Shown here: positions 1 through 5,216 of the stretch, piece after piece | How positions within the stretch are numbered: the stretch's first letter is position 1 | How the letters are laid out: each line of letters begins with the position of its first letter | Assembly (NCBI GenBank): GCA_013812985.1 | Contig: JACCSN010000541.1 | Span: forward strand, 1 to 5,216 | DNA length: 5,216 nt | Source of the DNA: Hyphomicrobiales bacterium | Lineage (GTDB): Bacteria; Pseudomonadota; Alphaproteobacteria; Rhizobiales; Afifellaceae | Reading direction: 5' to 3' | Position numbers and translations under genes: made by a program | Notes under the pieces: generated by a model | What the model was told of the DNA's origin: nothing | Databases searched by the model: none | What the model saw: the letters and a program-made list of their open reading frames with translations, nothing else

Positions 1-783
1 GTCGAGATCACTGTGGAAGCCCATGCTCAGGTAGTGCGTCGGGGTTTCGGCGCGCGGTAATTCCAGCAGGCGCCCGCTCTTGGACTTGTGCAGGACGATC
101 GTGAAGGTTCCGGTCAGCGCCGTTTCCAGCGCCGTGACGCAGACCTCACCATCCCCCTGAACGCCATGGCCATCGCCCACGGAGAAAAGCGCTCCGTCCG
201 CCCAGACCGGCAGATAAAGGATGCTGCCCGCCGTCAGCTGCTTGTTGTCGAGGTTGCCGCCATGAATGCGGGGCTCGCGCGACGAAACTTCTCCGTATTC
301 CGGCGGCGGCGCGACGCCCATCACGCCGAAGAAGGGTTTCAGCTTCAGTTCGGTCCCCCAGGGCAGCCGCGCGACACCGCGCTCCAGGTCGATTGGGATG
401 TGGGTGAGCACGCGGGTCGGCATGACGAAGTCCTCGGGCAGCGTGCCGTCGAAAGGCTCGATGGCGTTGAAGCCCCAGTTCGCCCCGAACTCGACCGCTT
501 CGATCCGCACCTCCAGCATGTCGCCCGGCGCCGCCCCCGTGATGGCGATCGGGCCGGTGAGAAGATGGCCCCAACGCACCGGCAGCTTTGCCTCATGGAT
601 GGCTCTCAGCCGCGGCGAAACTATCATCCCCGAGTTTTCCGGAGGCATCAGATCGGCGCCGCCCGACAAAGTTTCGATGACGACCGTATCACCGGATGCG
701 ATCTCGATGGCTGGGCTCGATGCCGAGCTGAACCGTCCCCAATGCACCGTATAAGGTGTGGCGTCGACCCGATGAGCGACCAT
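1..783 (-). CDS. Acetamidase/formamidase family amide hydrolase (C-terminus cut off by window edge)
   Basis: Members of the FmdA/AmdA family hydrolyse short-chain amides such as formamide or acetamide to ammonia and the carboxylic acid in the cytoplasm. The frame is open from an ATG whose complement is 781-783 to base 1 (261 codons, no stop). Family hallmarks are visible: HWGRFS near residue 14, a GDTVVIET stretch near 30-40, GPIAITGAAPGDMLEV around 75-90, NWGFN, PFFGVMGVAPPP, HGGNLDN at 174-180, and GDGHGVQGDGEV at 203-214. The last two are probably the metal-binding and active-site segments. Relatives run to roughly 300 residues or slightly more, so about 40-60 C-terminal residues lie outside the window. 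The start is supported by GGGGAG (complement of 792-797) eight bases upstream. There is no signal peptide. The gene is divergent from the regulator-led operon and shares its control region, so it may be co-regulated; this is inference. The family call is secure, the exact substrate is not. Confidence 0.93.
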   Translation of the reverse strand, partial: MVAHRVDATPYTVHWGRFSSASSPAIEIASGDTVVIETLSGGADLMPPENSGMIVSPRLRAIHEAKLPVRWGHLLTGPIAITGAAPGDMLEVRIEAVEFGANWGFNAIEPFDGTLPEDFVMPTRVLTHIPIDLERGVARLPWGTELKLKPFFGVMGVAPPPEYGEVSSREPRIHGGNLDNKQLTAGSILYLPVWADGALFSVGDGHGVQGDGEVCVTALETALTGTFTIVLHKSKSGRLLELPRAETPTHYLSMGFHSDLD

Positions 784-866: not shown

Positions 867-881
867 AGAGGTCTGACCTCT
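867..881. promoter_or_regulatory. Candidate GntR-family operator (perfect 15-bp palindrome)
   Basis: AGAGGTC-T-GACCTCT is a perfect inverted repeat with 7-base arms and a 1-base centre. Its GGTC...GACC core resembles GntR-superfamily operators: FadR-type sites have GGTCnGACC and DasR/NagR (HutC-type) sites have GGTCTAGACC. It ends one base before a TTGACG hexamer at 883-888 and lies just ahead of a GntR-family gene. A bound regulator there would hinder RNA polymerase at that promoter and could also affect the divergent amidase promoter. Sequence and position are seen directly; regulator identity and autoregulation are inferred. Confidence 0.6.
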
Positions 882-939: not shown

Positions 940-1725
940 TTGGACGACGGGCTGATCCCAGAACTGAACGAAAAGATCTGGCCCTCCGGTGCCCGCCGCG
1001 ATGACCTTGTCCAGCGCGTCACCAACGCGCTTCGCGAGCAGATCCTTTCCGGCCGGCTCGCCCCGGGTGCGAGGCTGGCCCCCGAAACGGAACTGGCTCG
1101 TTGGCTGGGCATCAGCCGCCCCACCTTGCGGGAAGCCATTCGGGTCTTGGCACGAGAATCCCTCGTCGCCGTGAAGCACGGCGTGGGCAGCTTCGTTGCA
1201 AGAGAGCCGAAGCCTATGCTGATCTCGCTCGAGGTCATGCGCTCCATGACCGACTTTATCCGGGCATCGGGAAGCGAGCCGGGGGTGCGCGACCTGTCGA
1301 TGCAATTGGTCGATGCTCCGGCGGATGCGGCAAAGCTGTTGGAGATCGAGGCTGGGTCGCCTGTAGCCAGGATTTCGCGCGTGCGCCTAGCCGGCGGCGC
1401 ACCGTTCGCCATCGCCAACGAATACTTGAAGCTAGACAGTCCGGAGCGGGATCTTAGCCGGATCGAAGCGTTCGAGGGTGGCTCGCTGTTCGAATTTCTC
1501 CGCGTGCATTGCGGCAAGCCTATCTCCCATAGCCGGCTCTGGATGTCGGCGACATCGGCCGATGGAGCGATGGCCAAGGTGCTGGGCCTCAAGCCCCACG
1601 CGCCTCTGCTGCTGATGCGCGAAATCCATTTCGATTTCCAGCACCGGCCGATGCTCTACTCGGTCAACTTCCACAACACCGATGTGCTCGAGTGCACGTC
1701 CGTGCGTTCCGGCCTGCCGAGATGA
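940..1725 (+). CDS. GntR-family transcriptional regulator, HutC subfamily (UTRA ligand domain)
   Basis: A cytoplasmic DNA-binding regulator of 261 residues from a TTG at 940. The N-terminal winged helix-turn-helix spans about residues 23-87. It contains LREQILSGRLAPGARLAPET, then ELARWLGISRPTLREAIRVLARE, a typical GntR recognition region, and a wing reading HGVGSFVA. The C-terminal part, about 115-256, is UTRA-like, with VARISRVRLAGGAPFAIANEYL and a terminal PMLYSVNFHNTDVLE segment. UTRA domains of this subfamily usually bind small metabolites, often phosphosugars or amino-sugar phosphates, which relieve repression. The frame is also open from a TTG at 883 (280 residues). I prefer 940 because the palindrome and -35-like hexamer then stay upstream, and GGCGAG lies nearby; this is not certain. 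The stop overlaps the kinase start by four bases (ATGA), so the regulator is the first gene of the operon and is probably autoregulated. Confidence 0.9.
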   Translation: MDDGLIPELNEKIWPSGARRDDLVQRVTNALREQILSGRLAPGARLAPETELARWLGISRPTLREAIRVLARESLVAVKHGVGSFVAREPKPMLISLEVMRSMTDFIRASGSEPGVRDLSMQLVDAPADAAKLLEIEAGSPVARISRVRLAGGAPFAIANEYLKLDSPERDLSRIEAFEGGSLFEFLRVHCGKPISHSRLWMSATSADGAMAKVLGLKPHAPLLLMREIHFDFQHRPMLYSVNFHNTDVLECTSVRSGLPR

Positions 1726-2636
1726 GCGGGTCGCAATACTGCACGGTCGGAAACATCAGCATCGATGACCTGGTATTCCCCGACGGCACGACGATGTGGT
1801 GCGTGCCGGGCGGTAACGCGATCTATTCGGCGCTTGGGATCGCGATCTGGCGCGAGCGGCCGGACGTCATCGCGCCAATGGGCCCCGAATACCCCAAGGA
1901 CGTCCTGGGCGACAGGATCGACCTCTCGCATGTTCGCCTGCTCGAGCGGAACATGCGCAACTGGGGTCTTTACGAAGAGGACGGCACGCGGACCTTCACG
2001 TTCCGCACCAAGACGCGCAATTGGATCGAGTTCTGCCCCACCGTCGCCGACGTGCATGGATCGCGCTACCTCTACGCGCATCTCGCGCCGCTGCCCTGGC
2101 CGCGGCAGATCGAGATCTCCGAGCAGCTCCGCCAGAACGGGGCGCGCGTCGTGTCGGTGGATCCGGACGACCGCTACGTGCACGAGCTCGACTCGGGGGC
2201 AATCATACGGCTGTTGCGCGCCGTCGACCTTTTCCTGCCGAGCCAGCAGGACGCCGAGGCGATGTTGCCGGGCAGGACGCCGCTGGATTCGCTGCGGGCG
2301 CTGCGCGACATGGCGCCTGAGCTGCCCGTCGTGGCGGTGAAATGCGGCGCCGACGGCGTTCTGATGCACCAAGCCGGCGCGGACGACTTCATTCGCCTGC
2401 CGACGGCGGCCGCATCGGTGGTCGACGCGACGGGGGCAGGCGACGCATTTTCCGGCGGTGCGCTCGCCGGCTATTCGAAGACGTCGAGCGCGGTCGAAGC
2501 CGTGCTGTGGGGAAGCGTTTCGGCCTCCTTCGCCGTCGCCGCGACCGGTCCAGCCGCCCTCGTCAGCGCCGGATACGAGGAAGCGCAAGCCAGGCTCGGC
2601 ATGCTGAGAAGCCGTATCGAGACCTACCGGATTTGA
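1722..2636 (+). CDS. PfkB-family carbohydrate kinase
   Basis: A complete ribokinase-like kinase of 304 residues, a normal length for the family, expected to transfer phosphate from ATP to a sugar or sugar-containing substrate in the cytoplasm. The N-terminal substrate-binding signature is VPGGNAIYSALG (about 28-39), with DPDDRY near 147-152, LPSQQDAEAM after it, and VKCGADGVL before the C-terminal signature. That signature, VVDATGAGDAF at 233-243, carries the anion hole and the catalytic base D241. The ATG at 1722 overlaps the regulator stop as ATGA and has no clear Shine-Dalgarno, which points to translational coupling. A longer frame reaches back to 1692, but that start would lie inside the regulator and add residues before the natural beta-strand start CTVGNISID. 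Next to a SIS-domain gene this resembles the fructoselysine 6-kinase (FrlD) arrangement, but PfkB substrates cannot be read from motifs, so no symbol is given. Confidence 0.93.
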   Translation: MSGSQYCTVGNISIDDLVFPDGTTMWCVPGGNAIYSALGIAIWRERPDVIAPMGPEYPKDVLGDRIDLSHVRLLERNMRNWGLYEEDGTRTFTFRTKTRNWIEFCPTVADVHGSRYLYAHLAPLPWPRQIEISEQLRQNGARVVSVDPDDRYVHELDSGAIIRLLRAVDLFLPSQQDAEAMLPGRTPLDSLRALRDMAPELPVVAVKCGADGVLMHQAGADDFIRLPTAAASVVDATGAGDAFSGGALAGYSKTSSAVEAVLWGSVSASFAVAATGPAALVSAGYEEAQARLGMLRSRIETYRI

Positions 2637-2672
2637 GATCAGGCCGCACGCAGGGACTGCGCCGGCGAACAT

Positions 2673-3845
2673 GTGGAGAGCGAGTTGGAGAACGAGAAAA
2701 CAGTTATGCTGCGCGAGATCGCCATGCAGCCGGCCTTCGTCAGGGACAACATCGACGGCATGCTCGCCTACATGCGCGAGGTCATGGCCTCGCGTGAGCC
2801 CGGGACGCTTCGGCACGGCTTCATGATCGGCTGCGGCGACAGCTACTGTGCCGCGCTTGCCGCGCGCCAATACATGATGAAGGCGACGGGCCGGTTCATC
2901 GAACCGGTGGAGGCGCTCGAGTTCTCCAGATACCTGGTGGCCGATCTGCCGGACGATTCCTTCGTGTTCGGCGTATCCAATTCGGGCACGGTCTCGCGCA
3001 CCATCGAGGGGGTCCGCCTTGCCCGGGAGAAGGGCGCGTGGACGTTCGCCGTCACGGTGAGCGCCGACAACACGCTTGCCCACACCGCCGAAACCCTGAT
3101 TAAGGTGAACGCGACGCCGAACATCAAGGAGCTGCCGGACGGCACCCGGGTGGTAACGCCGGGAAGCATCACCTACACGGCAAGCATGCTCGGCCTGTTT
3201 GCCTCGGCCATCGCAATCGGCGAGCGGATTGGCAACCTGGACCGCAGCCGCTCGGCAGAAATGGTCGCTGAACTGCACGAGGTCGCGGTCGCCATGGACA
3301 AGGCCGACGCGCCGGTGCGCAAGCTGGCCGAGGAATGCGCCGCGACCTTCACGCCCGACCGCCGCACCGTGTTCCTGGGCGGCGGGCCCAACTACGCGAC
3401 CGCCTACTTCGCCATGGCGAAGTGGTTCGAAGGCCTGACCCGGCCGGCCCACACCTCGGAGCTGGAAGAGTGGGCGCACGAGCAGTACTTCATCACCGAC
3501 GAGACCACGGACACTTTCATCATCCTGCCGCCCGGCGCCGGTCGCGACCGCGGCCTGGAGCAGGCGCAGGCGGCGCGCGACATGGGCTCGCGCGTCATCA
3601 TCATCGGCGATAAAAGGGACGCCGCCGCACAAGCGGCAGCCAACATCTACTTCGGCATGCCCTCCGGCGTTCCCGAGTCGCTGACGCCCTTCGTCTACAA
3701 GCTGCCCTTCGAATATCTGTCATGCGCGATATCGCGGCAGCAGAACATCGCCTTCCTGGGCTTCAACAACCGCAGGCGGCAGGAGGTGAACTTCCGCCAA
3801 ATCTTCAATTCGGCACAGGCGCAAGCGCCGAAAGAAGTCGCCTGA
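2673..3845 (+). CDS. Double SIS-domain protein, phosphosugar isomerase/deglycase-like (AgaS/FrlB/GlmS-type)
   Basis: A cytoplasmic protein of 390 residues with two sugar-isomerase (SIS) domains. It opens with MLREIAMQPAFVRDNI, the style seen at the start of GlmS-isomerase, AgaS and FrlB proteins. SIS domain 1 (about 48-180) has IGCGDSYCAALAA at 52-64 and the phosphosugar-binding SNSGT at 102-106. SIS domain 2 (about 232-340) has VFLGGGPNYATAYFA at 233-247 and ELEEWAHEQYF at 263-273, in the place where relatives carry catalytic Glu and His residues. The end, YKLPFEYLSCAIS, also resembles FrlB. Relatives isomerise or deaminate amino-sugar phosphates or cleave sugar-phosphate/amine adducts. The likely substrate is the product of the upstream kinase. 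The longest start is GTG at 2673; ATG at 2706 (379 residues) is an equal alternative, and neither has a strong Shine-Dalgarno. The gap to the kinase is 36 bases in the same frame, closed by one TGA. Confidence 0.9.
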   Translation: MESELENEKTVMLREIAMQPAFVRDNIDGMLAYMREVMASREPGTLRHGFMIGCGDSYCAALAARQYMMKATGRFIEPVEALEFSRYLVADLPDDSFVFGVSNSGTVSRTIEGVRLAREKGAWTFAVTVSADNTLAHTAETLIKVNATPNIKELPDGTRVVTPGSITYTASMLGLFASAIAIGERIGNLDRSRSAEMVAELHEVAVAMDKADAPVRKLAEECAATFTPDRRTVFLGGGPNYATAYFAMAKWFEGLTRPAHTSELEEWAHEQYFITDETTDTFIILPPGAGRDRGLEQAQAARDMGSRVIIIGDKRDAAAQAAANIYFGMPSGVPESLTPFVYKLPFEYLSCAISRQQNIAFLGFNNRRRQEVNFRQIFNSAQAQAPKEVA

Positions 3846-4657
3846 TGAGCCAGCTGCTGTCCCTGATCCGCGCCCATCGCAAGCCGGTCATCGGGATGGT
3901 TCAGCTCGGCCCATTGCCGGGCGGCTGCCGCTATCGCGGCGGCAAGATCGGAGCGGTTCTCGACGCCGCGCTGTCGGAGGCCGAGATCCTGAGCCGCAAC
4001 GGCGTCGACGCCATGATGGTGCAGAATCTCGGCGACCTGCCCGTCGCAATGCGCGCCACCGCGGCGCAGGTTGCCTGGATGACCCGGGTGGCGAGCGAGA
4101 TCGCCAGCCGCTTCGGCATCCCCACGGGACTCAATCTCCTGGAGAACGATGCCGAGGCGATGTTCGCCATCGCATCCGCCTCCGGCGCCGATTTCGTCCG
4201 CATCAAGATCTATGTCGGGGCGATGATGACGCCGTTCGGCATGGAAACAGCGCAGGCGCATGCAGCTATCAAGGCGCGCACCAGCTGGAATGCGGAGAAC
4301 GTCGCGATCTTCGCCGACGTCCACGACAGGACAGGCACGCCGATCGGCACCGGGGGGTTCGAGGAGGATGTCGAGTTCGCCATCCGCCTGGGCGGCGCGG
4401 ACGGCCTCGTTCTGACCGGCAAGACCTACGATCAGACCCTTGAATTCATCATGGCCGCCCGGCGCAAATATCCCGACGTCCCGATCCTTGTCGGGGGCGG
4501 GGTCACGGTCGACAATATCGGCGACGTCGCGGCTGTCGCGGACGGCGCCATCGTCAGTACGTCCCTGAAGGGTTCGGGAAGCGCCGTGGGCGCGTTCGTG
4601 CCCGAGAAAGTCCAGGAATTCATGGCCGCTGCCGCCAAGGTACGACAACTGGCCTGA
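3845..4657 (+). CDS. BtpA/SgcQ-family TIM-barrel protein
   Basis: A protein of 270 residues, the usual size for the BtpA family (COG0434 type). These are predicted TIM-barrel enzymes, including E. coli SgcQ of the sgc sugar cluster and cyanobacterial BtpA, which was linked to photosystem I; no reaction is generally assigned. Visible motifs are VIGMVQLGPLPG at 15-26, GVDAMMVQNLGDLP at 53-66, GADFVRI at 114-120, ADVHDRTGTPIG at 157-168, and a C-terminal phosphate-binding-like pair, ILVGGGVTVDNI at 214-225 and ADGAIVSTSLK at 232-242. The ATG at 3845 shares its A with the SIS stop (TGATG), and a weak GAAAGAAG lies 7 bases upstream, so translation is probably coupled. A longer frame from 3722 is open but lies inside the SIS gene and adds an unrelated 41-residue leader. 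In this operon the protein probably works on a phosphorylated sugar intermediate; that is inference. Confidence 0.9.
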   Translation: MSQLLSLIRAHRKPVIGMVQLGPLPGGCRYRGGKIGAVLDAALSEAEILSRNGVDAMMVQNLGDLPVAMRATAAQVAWMTRVASEIASRFGIPTGLNLLENDAEAMFAIASASGADFVRIKIYVGAMMTPFGMETAQAHAAIKARTSWNAENVAIFADVHDRTGTPIGTGGFEEDVEFAIRLGGADGLVLTGKTYDQTLEFIMAARRKYPDVPILVGGGVTVDNIGDVAAVADGAIVSTSLKGSGSAVGAFVPEKVQEFMAAAAKVRQLA

Positions 4658-4719
4658 ACCGACCCGCGATCGCATGCTCATCAAGAAGCCAGCGCGGTAA
4701 ACCGAAGAAGGAGGTAAGC
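4658..4719. other. Intergenic gap before the binding-protein gene
   Basis: This 62-base gap is the longest between the plus-strand genes. It contains a GCGATCGC palindrome at 4666-4673 and a purine-rich end. I see no convincing terminator, because there is no stable stem followed by T residues, and no clear promoter. The binding-protein gene is therefore most simply read as part of the same transcript, with stronger translation from its own ribosome binding site. Confidence 0.4.
4708..4715 (+). promoter_or_regulatory. Strong Shine-Dalgarno of the binding-protein gene
   Basis: AAGGAGGT is a near-perfect match to the anti-Shine-Dalgarno of 16S rRNA and sits four bases before the ATG at 4720. 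It fixes the start. It is much stronger than the sites of the upstream genes, as expected when a periplasmic binding protein must be made in excess over the enzymes. Confidence 0.85.
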
Positions 4720-5216
4720 ATGTTGAAGTCAATTCTACGCTACGGGACTGCAGCGCTCGTCGCTTTCGGATTTGTTTCCGGAGCCGCTGCCCAGGACAAG
4801 CTCCGGGTGGCCATGGTCACCTCGGAATCCGGCCTAGGCGACCGCTCGTTCAACGACATGATGGTCGAGGGAATGAAACGAGCCGAGACGGACCTCAACG
4901 CCGAATACGTGATCATACAGCCGCGCGCCGTGTCCGAGTTCCAGTCAGCCCTCGCCCGCGCGGCCGGCCAGGATTTTGATATCATCATCGGCTCCTCGTT
5001 CGACATGATCAAGCCGATGCAGGAGGTCGCGAAGGCATTTTCCGACCAGAAATTCGGGCTCGTCGACGTCGGCCCCGAACCGCTCGGGCCCAATGTCGTC
5101 AGCACGGTGACGAAGGACTGGGAAGGCTCGTTCCTGGTCGGCTGGATCGCGGCGAAGACCACCAAGACCGGTACGATCGGCTTTGTCGGCGGCAAGGACA
5201 TCCCGATCATCCACCG
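4720..5216 (+). CDS. BMP/PnrA-family ABC-transporter substrate-binding protein (C-terminus cut off by window edge)
   Basis: This is the first 165 codons of a periplasmic binding protein of the basic membrane protein (BMP/PnrA/TmpC) family, which delivers ligand to an ABC importer. Characterised members bind purine nucleosides or related compounds. Residues 1-24 form a Sec signal peptide: basic MLKSILR, a hydrophobic core, then GAAA before QDK, with likely cleavage after A24. No lipobox cysteine is present, so it should be a soluble periplasmic protein rather than a lipoprotein. Family motifs are GLGDRSFNDMMVEGM at 38-52, a FDIIIGSSFDM stretch near 87-97, and DWEGSFLVGWIAAK followed by TGTIGFVGGKDIPII near the cut end. 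Family members are usually 320-360 residues, so about half is missing. The ATPase and permease genes are expected just downstream. Its place after the catabolic genes suggests that it imports the pathway substrate. Confidence 0.93.
   Translation, partial: MLKSILRYGTAALVAFGFVSGAAAQDKLRVAMVTSESGLGDRSFNDMMVEGMKRAETDLNAEYVIIQPRAVSEFQSALARAAGQDFDIIIGSSFDMIKPMQEVAKAFSDQKFGLVDVGPEPLGPNVVSTVTKDWEGSFLVGWIAAKTTKTGTIGFVGGKDIPIIH

Follow-up and report, generated by a model that had tools for sequence, protein, structure and literature searches.

In the fructosamine pathways of FrlD/FrlB and FraD/FraB, a PfkB-type kinase and a double-SIS deglycase are encoded in one catabolic operon. The same pairing of kinase and double-SIS protein occurs in a DNA stretch of 5,216 nucleotides (hereafter the window, meaning its full length) from a Hyphomicrobiales bacterium of the Afifellaceae (GCA_013812985.1, contig JACCSN010000541.1), but there the pair is accompanied by a BtpA barrel and a BMP importer, and in relatives also by a base-opening arm under a shared motif. 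The Atz pathway of cyanuric acid, taken together with AtzT, likewise has an AtzD-family hydrolase, an amidase and a BMP-type binding protein, whereas the flavin adenine dinucleotide (FAD) monooxygenase, kinase, SIS and BtpA proteins are extra here. The oxidative pyrimidine pathway (barbiturase and ureidomalonase), described in part in excerpts of PMC3758960, likewise passes through an AtzD/barbiturase-family hydrolase and then an amidase. The BtpA protein of the window belongs to the same BtpA/SgcQ family as cyanobacterial BtpA and Escherichia coli SgcQ (26% identical to SgcQ), and a related full-length binding protein (L004) has the BMP/PnrA-type nucleoside binders TmpC, BmpA and BmpD among its closest relatives of solved structure ( G and L numbers are our own handles). 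A search of open-licence papers found no description of this gene set.

Our comparison finds in rhizobium-like bacteria a conserved set of genes, apparently governed by a single regulator, through which a nucleoside-like compound seems to be taken up and broken down, with one arm for the sugar and a second that opens the nitrogen ring. We put the probability that the set is a single regulon for uptake and degradation of a nucleoside-like N-glycoside at about one half. The comparison shows a conserved gene order, a distribution over the same genomes, a shared motif and GlmS-type residues in the SIS protein, and the new element is the motif, which joins the genes of the window to a ring-opening arm. 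Such a regulon would be a natural setting for enzymes of the cyanuric acid hydrolase family beyond herbicide breakdown.

Gene order and co-occurrence

A sequence-only reading of the window had proposed five plus-strand genes with two overlapping pairs, and their places are borne out by the open reading frames and by Pfam. In the family-profile search all five exceeded the Pfam cut-offs (GntR with UTRA, PfkB, SIS, BtpA and BMP). The features of the window are as follows.

783..1, minus strand: FmdA/AmdA-type acetamidase/formamidase gene, cut by the window start (PF03069, 98.8 bits over a cut-off of 27)
867..881, no strand: palindrome AGAGGTCTGACCTCT, candidate GntR operator, a perfect 7+1+7 between the FmdA-type gene and gntR
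940..1725, plus strand: gntR, GntR-family regulator with a UTRA sensor domain (HutC/PhnF-like), start codon TTG 940 (PF00392, 64.2 bits; PF07702, 97.0 bits)
1722..2636, plus strand: pfkB, PfkB-family kinase, whose start ATG 1722 overlaps the gntR stop (ATGA) (PF00294, 66.1 bits)
2685..3845, plus strand: double-SIS phosphosugar protein gene; the longest open reading frame runs from GTG 2673, a possible start, and relatives begin at the position of TTG 2685 (PF01380, 64.5 bits)
3845..4657, plus strand: btpA, BtpA/SgcQ-family TIM barrel, whose start ATG 3845 overlaps the SIS stop (TGATG) (PF03437, 195.9 over 30 bits; TIGR00259, 195.6 over 153.4)
4720..5216, plus strand: bmp, BMP-family periplasmic binding protein, start codon ATG 4720, cut by the window end (PF02608, 80.1 bits)

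For the GntR protein, all 25 NCBIfam rows listed fall short of their cut-offs. The FmdA/AmdA-type gene is divergent from gntR and scores below the cut-off of the NCBIfam formamidase equivalog (68.2 of 500 bits); neither this gene nor the palindrome had been mentioned in the sequence-only reading.

The order GntR-PfkB-SIS-BtpA-BMP is kept in all seven loci that encode a close BtpA relative in a scan of genome contigs, and in all 12 genomes or plasmids compared, including the M. huakuii plasmid pMHb, G057, G299, G327 and G316, the last with its five-gene set spread over two contigs and the break inside btpA. The bmp gene is followed by genes for an ATP-binding cassette (ABC) ATPase and two permeases in 11/11 relatives whose DNA extends that far; G003, whose DNA ends inside bmp, was excluded from this count. 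In an evenly drawn sample of 397 genomes of Hyphomicrobiales (E up to 1e-60 for BtpA and SIS), close relatives of the SIS and BtpA proteins were found in the identical six genomes; the best candidates per genome alone were scored (6 and 4), so some relatives may have been missed. The sequence-only reading would have been refuted by SIS and BtpA homologues not conserved together with the BMP transporter, and these counts do not refute it in this way. The BtpA subfamily occurs in 5 of 136 genomes of the family of G004 (Devosia) and in 3 of 28 of the family of G005. An FmdA homologue is divergent from gntR and adjoins it in L003, L004, L006 and G299, and lies ~5 kb from it in G327.

A motif shared with a ring-opening arm

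All 13 gntR genes, those of the 12 carriers and that of the window, have the motif upstream, and the stretches in front of them have AGAGGTC[A/T]GAC in common. A matrix trained solely on these 13 sites was applied to 11 regions (399,736 bases in total) and placed a site scoring at least 14 upstream of the AtzD gene in all nine regions with that operon; in G057 this site and the end of the gene before it overlap. In G003 the AtzD operon, unlinked and found by pattern scan, also bears a site (score 18.1), and the AtzD-upstream site is thereby present in 10 of 11 genomes in total. FmdA of G327, where the gene has moved away from gntR, carries the motif upstream, as does a nucleoside hydrolase gene in at least three genomes (G004, G006, where it is on another contig, and G327, where it is ~200 kb away). 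The best score per site ranged from 14.9 to 23.5. Outside the gntR promoters of the 11 regions, the sites of at least 14 that were listed lie upstream of AtzD, of FmdA (G327) and of the nucleoside hydrolase (G004), with no other listed, and three further matches scoring 11 to 14 all fall within genes, one of them in G299 within the gene for the importer ATPase. From a Markov control, 4.9, 1.5 and 0.65 matches would be expected at thresholds of 11, 14 and 17 or more over ~400 kb. Four additional AtzD copies (one in G299, one in G007 and two in G072) had no site of 11 or more. The pattern scan led to 12 further stretches being followed up, of which three were informative (AtzD in G003, nucleoside hydrolase in G006 and G327) and nine were not. 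The palindrome of the window is a predicted operator, to which the GntR protein may bind. The five genes that had earlier been proposed as one pathway do form one co-conserved unit, but roughly double that number make up the candidate regulon.

The second arm comprises genes for an AtzD-family ring-opening hydrolase, a FAD monooxygenase, an amidase and a short-chain dehydrogenase/reductase (SDR), which were found in nine of the 11 compared regions; a gene of the NAD-dependent epimerase family was found in all 11. The two regions that lack the arm are those of G003, where the contig ends, and of M. huakuii, and in G003 the four genes were located on another contig. AtzD, FAD monooxygenase and SDR genes are present in G316, and the AtzD and FAD monooxygenase genes are known in 11/12 carriers. 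At E up to 1e-50, the subfamily of the FAD monooxygenase was found in all six carriers of the 397-genome draw and in one of the 391 others, G072, which has AtzD, FAD and amidase genes and no GntR-PfkB-SIS-BtpA relatives within 33 kb.

The FAD monooxygenase is urate-hydroxylase-like, but the HpxO equivalog NF033623 was not reached (90.1 and 90.2 of 500 bits). Among the AtzD homologues, that of G057 was scored as a whole protein and those of the other carriers as fragments; the G057 protein passes the cyanuric acid amidohydrolase equivalog NF052395 (432.7 over 360 bits). Excerpts of PMC3758960 give Arg195, Thr321, Arg325, Gly345 and Gly346 as the AtzD specificity residues, and Asn195, His321, Lys325, Val345 and Ser/Ala346 as the Bar-type signature. 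In that scheme, with positions hand-counted on the alignment, the G057 homologue has Arg195, Gln321, Arg325, Gly345 and Gly346, keeping four of the five AtzD residues with Gln replacing Thr321, whereas the Bar-type signature, as given in those excerpts, is absent from it.

Neighbours are less constant over the 11 regions: FmdA, CoA transferase, crotonase and class V aminotransferase genes (5 each), DeoC and second SIS genes (4 each), and aldehyde dehydrogenase and PuuE-like genes (3 each), with a ureidoglycolate lyase gene in G005. The urate-hydroxylase-like and cyanuric-acid-hydrolase-like genes, with allantoinase-like and ureidoglycolate lyase genes in places, suggest an oxidised purine or similar ring as the base.

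Several further genes were observed around this arm. In L005, positions 15596-17060, 3' of the importer genes, hold a PuuE-like allantoinase gene (400.8 of 424.6 bits) and a gene of the ureidoglycolate lyase family. A separate BMP transporter, an AtzD copy, an amidase and a regulator judged by eye to resemble IclR occur without the motif in the G299 region (32724-40868) and in L062/L063 (G072). A transporter of the energy-coupling factor (ECF) type with PF09819 and CbiQ parts adjoins the AtzD operon (L030, 8361-11765) and has homologues in G007, G057 and G316; its ligand may point to the base.

Kinase, SIS protein, barrel and importer

By profile, the nearest solved relatives of the SIS protein are GlmS isomerase domains (E 1.6e-33), and GlmS/GFAT proteins are the top fold matches of its predicted model (predicted local distance difference test, pLDDT, 91.1). 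Read off the alignment, K250, E253 and H269 (numbered from 2673) align with K485, E488 and H504 of GlmS, which we take to be proton-transfer and ring-opening residues, and the K, E and H residues are invariant in 12/12 sequences. The protein is nevertheless not GlmS: of its 390 amino acids the isomerase part alone matches (9-358 on model positions 250-591, 77.6 of 418 bits), and the N-terminal glutaminase domain that GlmS joins to its isomerase domain was not found. It also stays below the cut-off of the FrlB equivalog NF008481 (23.3 of 430 bits), and 3eua, a solved 'putative fructose-aminoacid-6-phosphate deglycase', is among its relatives. The kinase shows the GAGD motif in every aligned row, has 3kd6 as its best solved relative (E 3.4e-15) and falls below the cut-off of the FrlD equivalog NF007321 (29.7 of 247 bits). 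A second SIS and PfkB pair lies beside the cluster in L005 (4846-6965), with homologues in the G299 and G327 regions, and the second SIS of L005 outscores that of the window against GlmS (139 versus 82 bits).

Membership of the BtpA/SgcQ family is clear from both profiles listed above, and the photosystem I biogenesis BtpA equivalog NF045918 was below its cut-off (170.6 of 400 bits). No close solved relative of BtpA was found, the best being LBCATS-a (E 9.2e-6). Its predicted model (pLDDT 87.7) is a TIM barrel, for which the Foldseek list is headed by N-(5'-phosphoribosyl)anthranilate isomerase (template modelling score 0.57 on the query) and has thiamin phosphate synthase and ribulose-phosphate epimerase among its best rows; a phosphosugar-type barrel with a phosphorylated ligand would fit these matches. 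Q20, N61, N97, E100, R119, K121, D158, H160, D186 and K242 are invariant in 41 sequences including the window, and N61, R119, D186 and K242 are still kept in an alignment of seven with distant BtpA proteins. A literature search naming the BtpA/SgcQ family found, among open-licence papers, none that gives the family a reaction.

The whole L005 relative of the binding protein scores 211.7 bits against PF02608. For the full-length L004 relative the nearest solved proteins are Lbp and BmpA, followed by 4pev, BmpD and TmpC, with AtzT (PDB 6pi5) weaker. The view that BMP importers typically take nucleosides, from which the sequence-only reading had argued, fits BmpD, which binds adenosine and inosine according to excerpts of PMC7093131, but not AtzT, which in excerpts of PMC6834077 binds guanine and 2-hydroxyatrazine. 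A nucleoside-like substrate is still the best guess, but its basis is now the motif shared by nucleoside hydrolase and ring-opening genes, not the transporter alone.

Proposed route and its alternatives

Considering these results, we infer a plausible scheme, which extends to the substrate, the binding of the motif by GntR, each reaction and the order of steps. The GntR/UTRA protein, probably a repressor, would bind AGAGGTCWGACCTCT and be released by the substrate or a phosphorylated intermediate, and the BMP-type ABC importer would take the compound up. On the sugar side, the PfkB kinase would phosphorylate the compound, and BtpA and the GlmS-like SIS protein would open the sugar ring and free the sugar from nitrogen, either through deglycation after an Amadori-type rearrangement or through isomerisation. 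The sequence-only reading had put the kinase first, SIS second at the sugar-nitrogen bond and the barrel last, an order that is likewise conjectural. In the arm for the base, the urate-hydroxylase-like FAD monooxygenase may oxidise the ring, the AtzD-family hydrolase may open it, and the amidase and the FmdA-type amidase may break up the pieces, with a nucleoside hydrolase added in some species. We regard as doubtful a narrower form of this scheme, a regulon for nucleosides that are damaged or otherwise modified, such as N-ribosides of urate or cyanuric acid type of the kind that guanine oxidation produces, with the base oxidised and opened while it is on the sugar or afterwards, and with BtpA (as Amadori-type isomerase) and SIS (as deglycase) forming a new pair that breaks the phosphoribosyl-nitrogen bond. 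If true, the BtpA/SgcQ family would gain a defined reaction.

Some observations weigh against a single regulon acting on an N-glycoside. In G316, no amidase was called in the stretches read and the same matrix gave no site 5' of AtzD. On plasmid pMHb of M. huakuii all five genes are present, but the 51 kb read, with an incomplete gene table, show neither an AtzD nor a FAD gene in the annotation. In G299 the amidase and SDR genes lie ~10 kb from AtzD, and the amidase is beside another BMP transporter. The nucleoside hydrolase site is known in at least three of the 11 carrier genomes scanned, and G004 and G006 are close kin whose nucleoside hydrolases are 95.5% identical. Allowing two mismatches, the pattern was genome-wide no commoner than a backwards control in 9/12 genomes, so it is position and gene identity that carry the regulon argument. 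Several carriers are closely related (five in the family of G004), so that carrier counts are not independent events. For the barrel, VIA-align placed dihydropteroate synthases and 2-keto-3-deoxy-6-phosphogluconate (KDPG) aldolases on top, and E. coli sgcQ (L044, 6112-6918), which lies among phosphotransferase system (PTS) genes, is annotated as a 'putative nucleoside triphosphatase'. That annotation, itself a guess, does not agree with a phosphosugar barrel whose target is a sugar-nitrogen bond.

A tentative alternative, possible although we would not favour it, is that the nucleoside hydrolase acts first and yields base and free sugar; PfkB, SIS and BtpA would then phosphorylate, isomerise and rearrange a free (unusual) sugar, while degradation of the base would fall to the FAD monooxygenase, AtzD and the amidase. 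It stays alive because the nucleoside hydrolase has the same motif in three genomes, and it agrees with the DeoC and aldehyde dehydrogenase genes beside some clusters, with the GlmS-type isomerase residues kept in SIS and with the ribulose-phosphate epimerases among the BtpA fold matches. However, the site-bearing hydrolase is known in few of the carriers, as given above, and plain ribose would presumably require ribokinase and general metabolism only, not SIS and BtpA.

We consider it improbable that the importer, in the manner of AtzT, supplies the AtzD arm with a free heterocycle such as a purine or triazine, with kinase, SIS and BtpA serving a second compound and the regulator alone in common. 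AtzT is a sequence relative of the binding protein, the G057 AtzD homologue exceeds the cyanuric acid amidohydrolase cut-off, and another BMP transporter stands beside the AtzD gene in G072 and G299. Against this, in every carrier read that far (11/11) the run of kinase, SIS and BtpA genes continues into those of the importer, Lbp, BmpA, BmpD and TmpC/PnrA score well above AtzT, and the motif is common to the nucleoside hydrolase in three genomes.

Use of an Amadori (fructosamine-like) compound of the FrlB/FrlD or FraB/FraD type, in which the kinase phosphorylates and the SIS protein deglycates, appears very unlikely. The kinase gene does adjoin a double-SIS gene, 3eua is among the SIS relatives and weak matches to fructoselysine 6-kinase and fructoselysine-6-phosphate deglycase exist, but both lie far under their curated cut-offs, and that pathway is not known to include a BMP importer, BtpA, AtzD, a FAD monooxygenase or a nucleoside hydrolase. 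Pseudouridine catabolism with BtpA or SIS replacing PsuG appears extremely unlikely, a PfkB kinase and a BMP-type importer being present but PsuG, of which the family-profile search found none among the genes of the window, being encoded elsewhere in all 10 carriers searched, those other than G003 and M. huakuii (PF04227, 395.6-440.8 bits).

If the single regulon for a nucleoside-like N-glycoside holds, the BtpA/SgcQ family, from E. coli SgcQ to these bacteria, would gain a definite metabolic setting, alongside a kinase and a GlmS-like SIS protein, with a BMP-type importer, enzymes for ring opening and a candidate operator in the same set.

Distant BtpA genes were seen in other settings. In L009 (8052-13325) and L011 (7111-11432) they lie in another sugar-type ABC operon with annotated ribokinase, phosphotriesterase and TenA-family genes, so that the pairing of kinase and BtpA recurs with no SIS annotated. 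In L010 (1-10774), from a plasmid of Mesorhizobium sp. L-2-11, a distant BtpA gene lies near an annotated gene of the beta-ribofuranosylaminobenzene 5'-phosphate synthase family, and its neighbours are also annotated as PurH, PurC-type, phosphoribosylanthranilate isomerase and Rieske proteins, a neighbourhood that presumably resembles C-nucleoside (formycin-type) biosynthesis.

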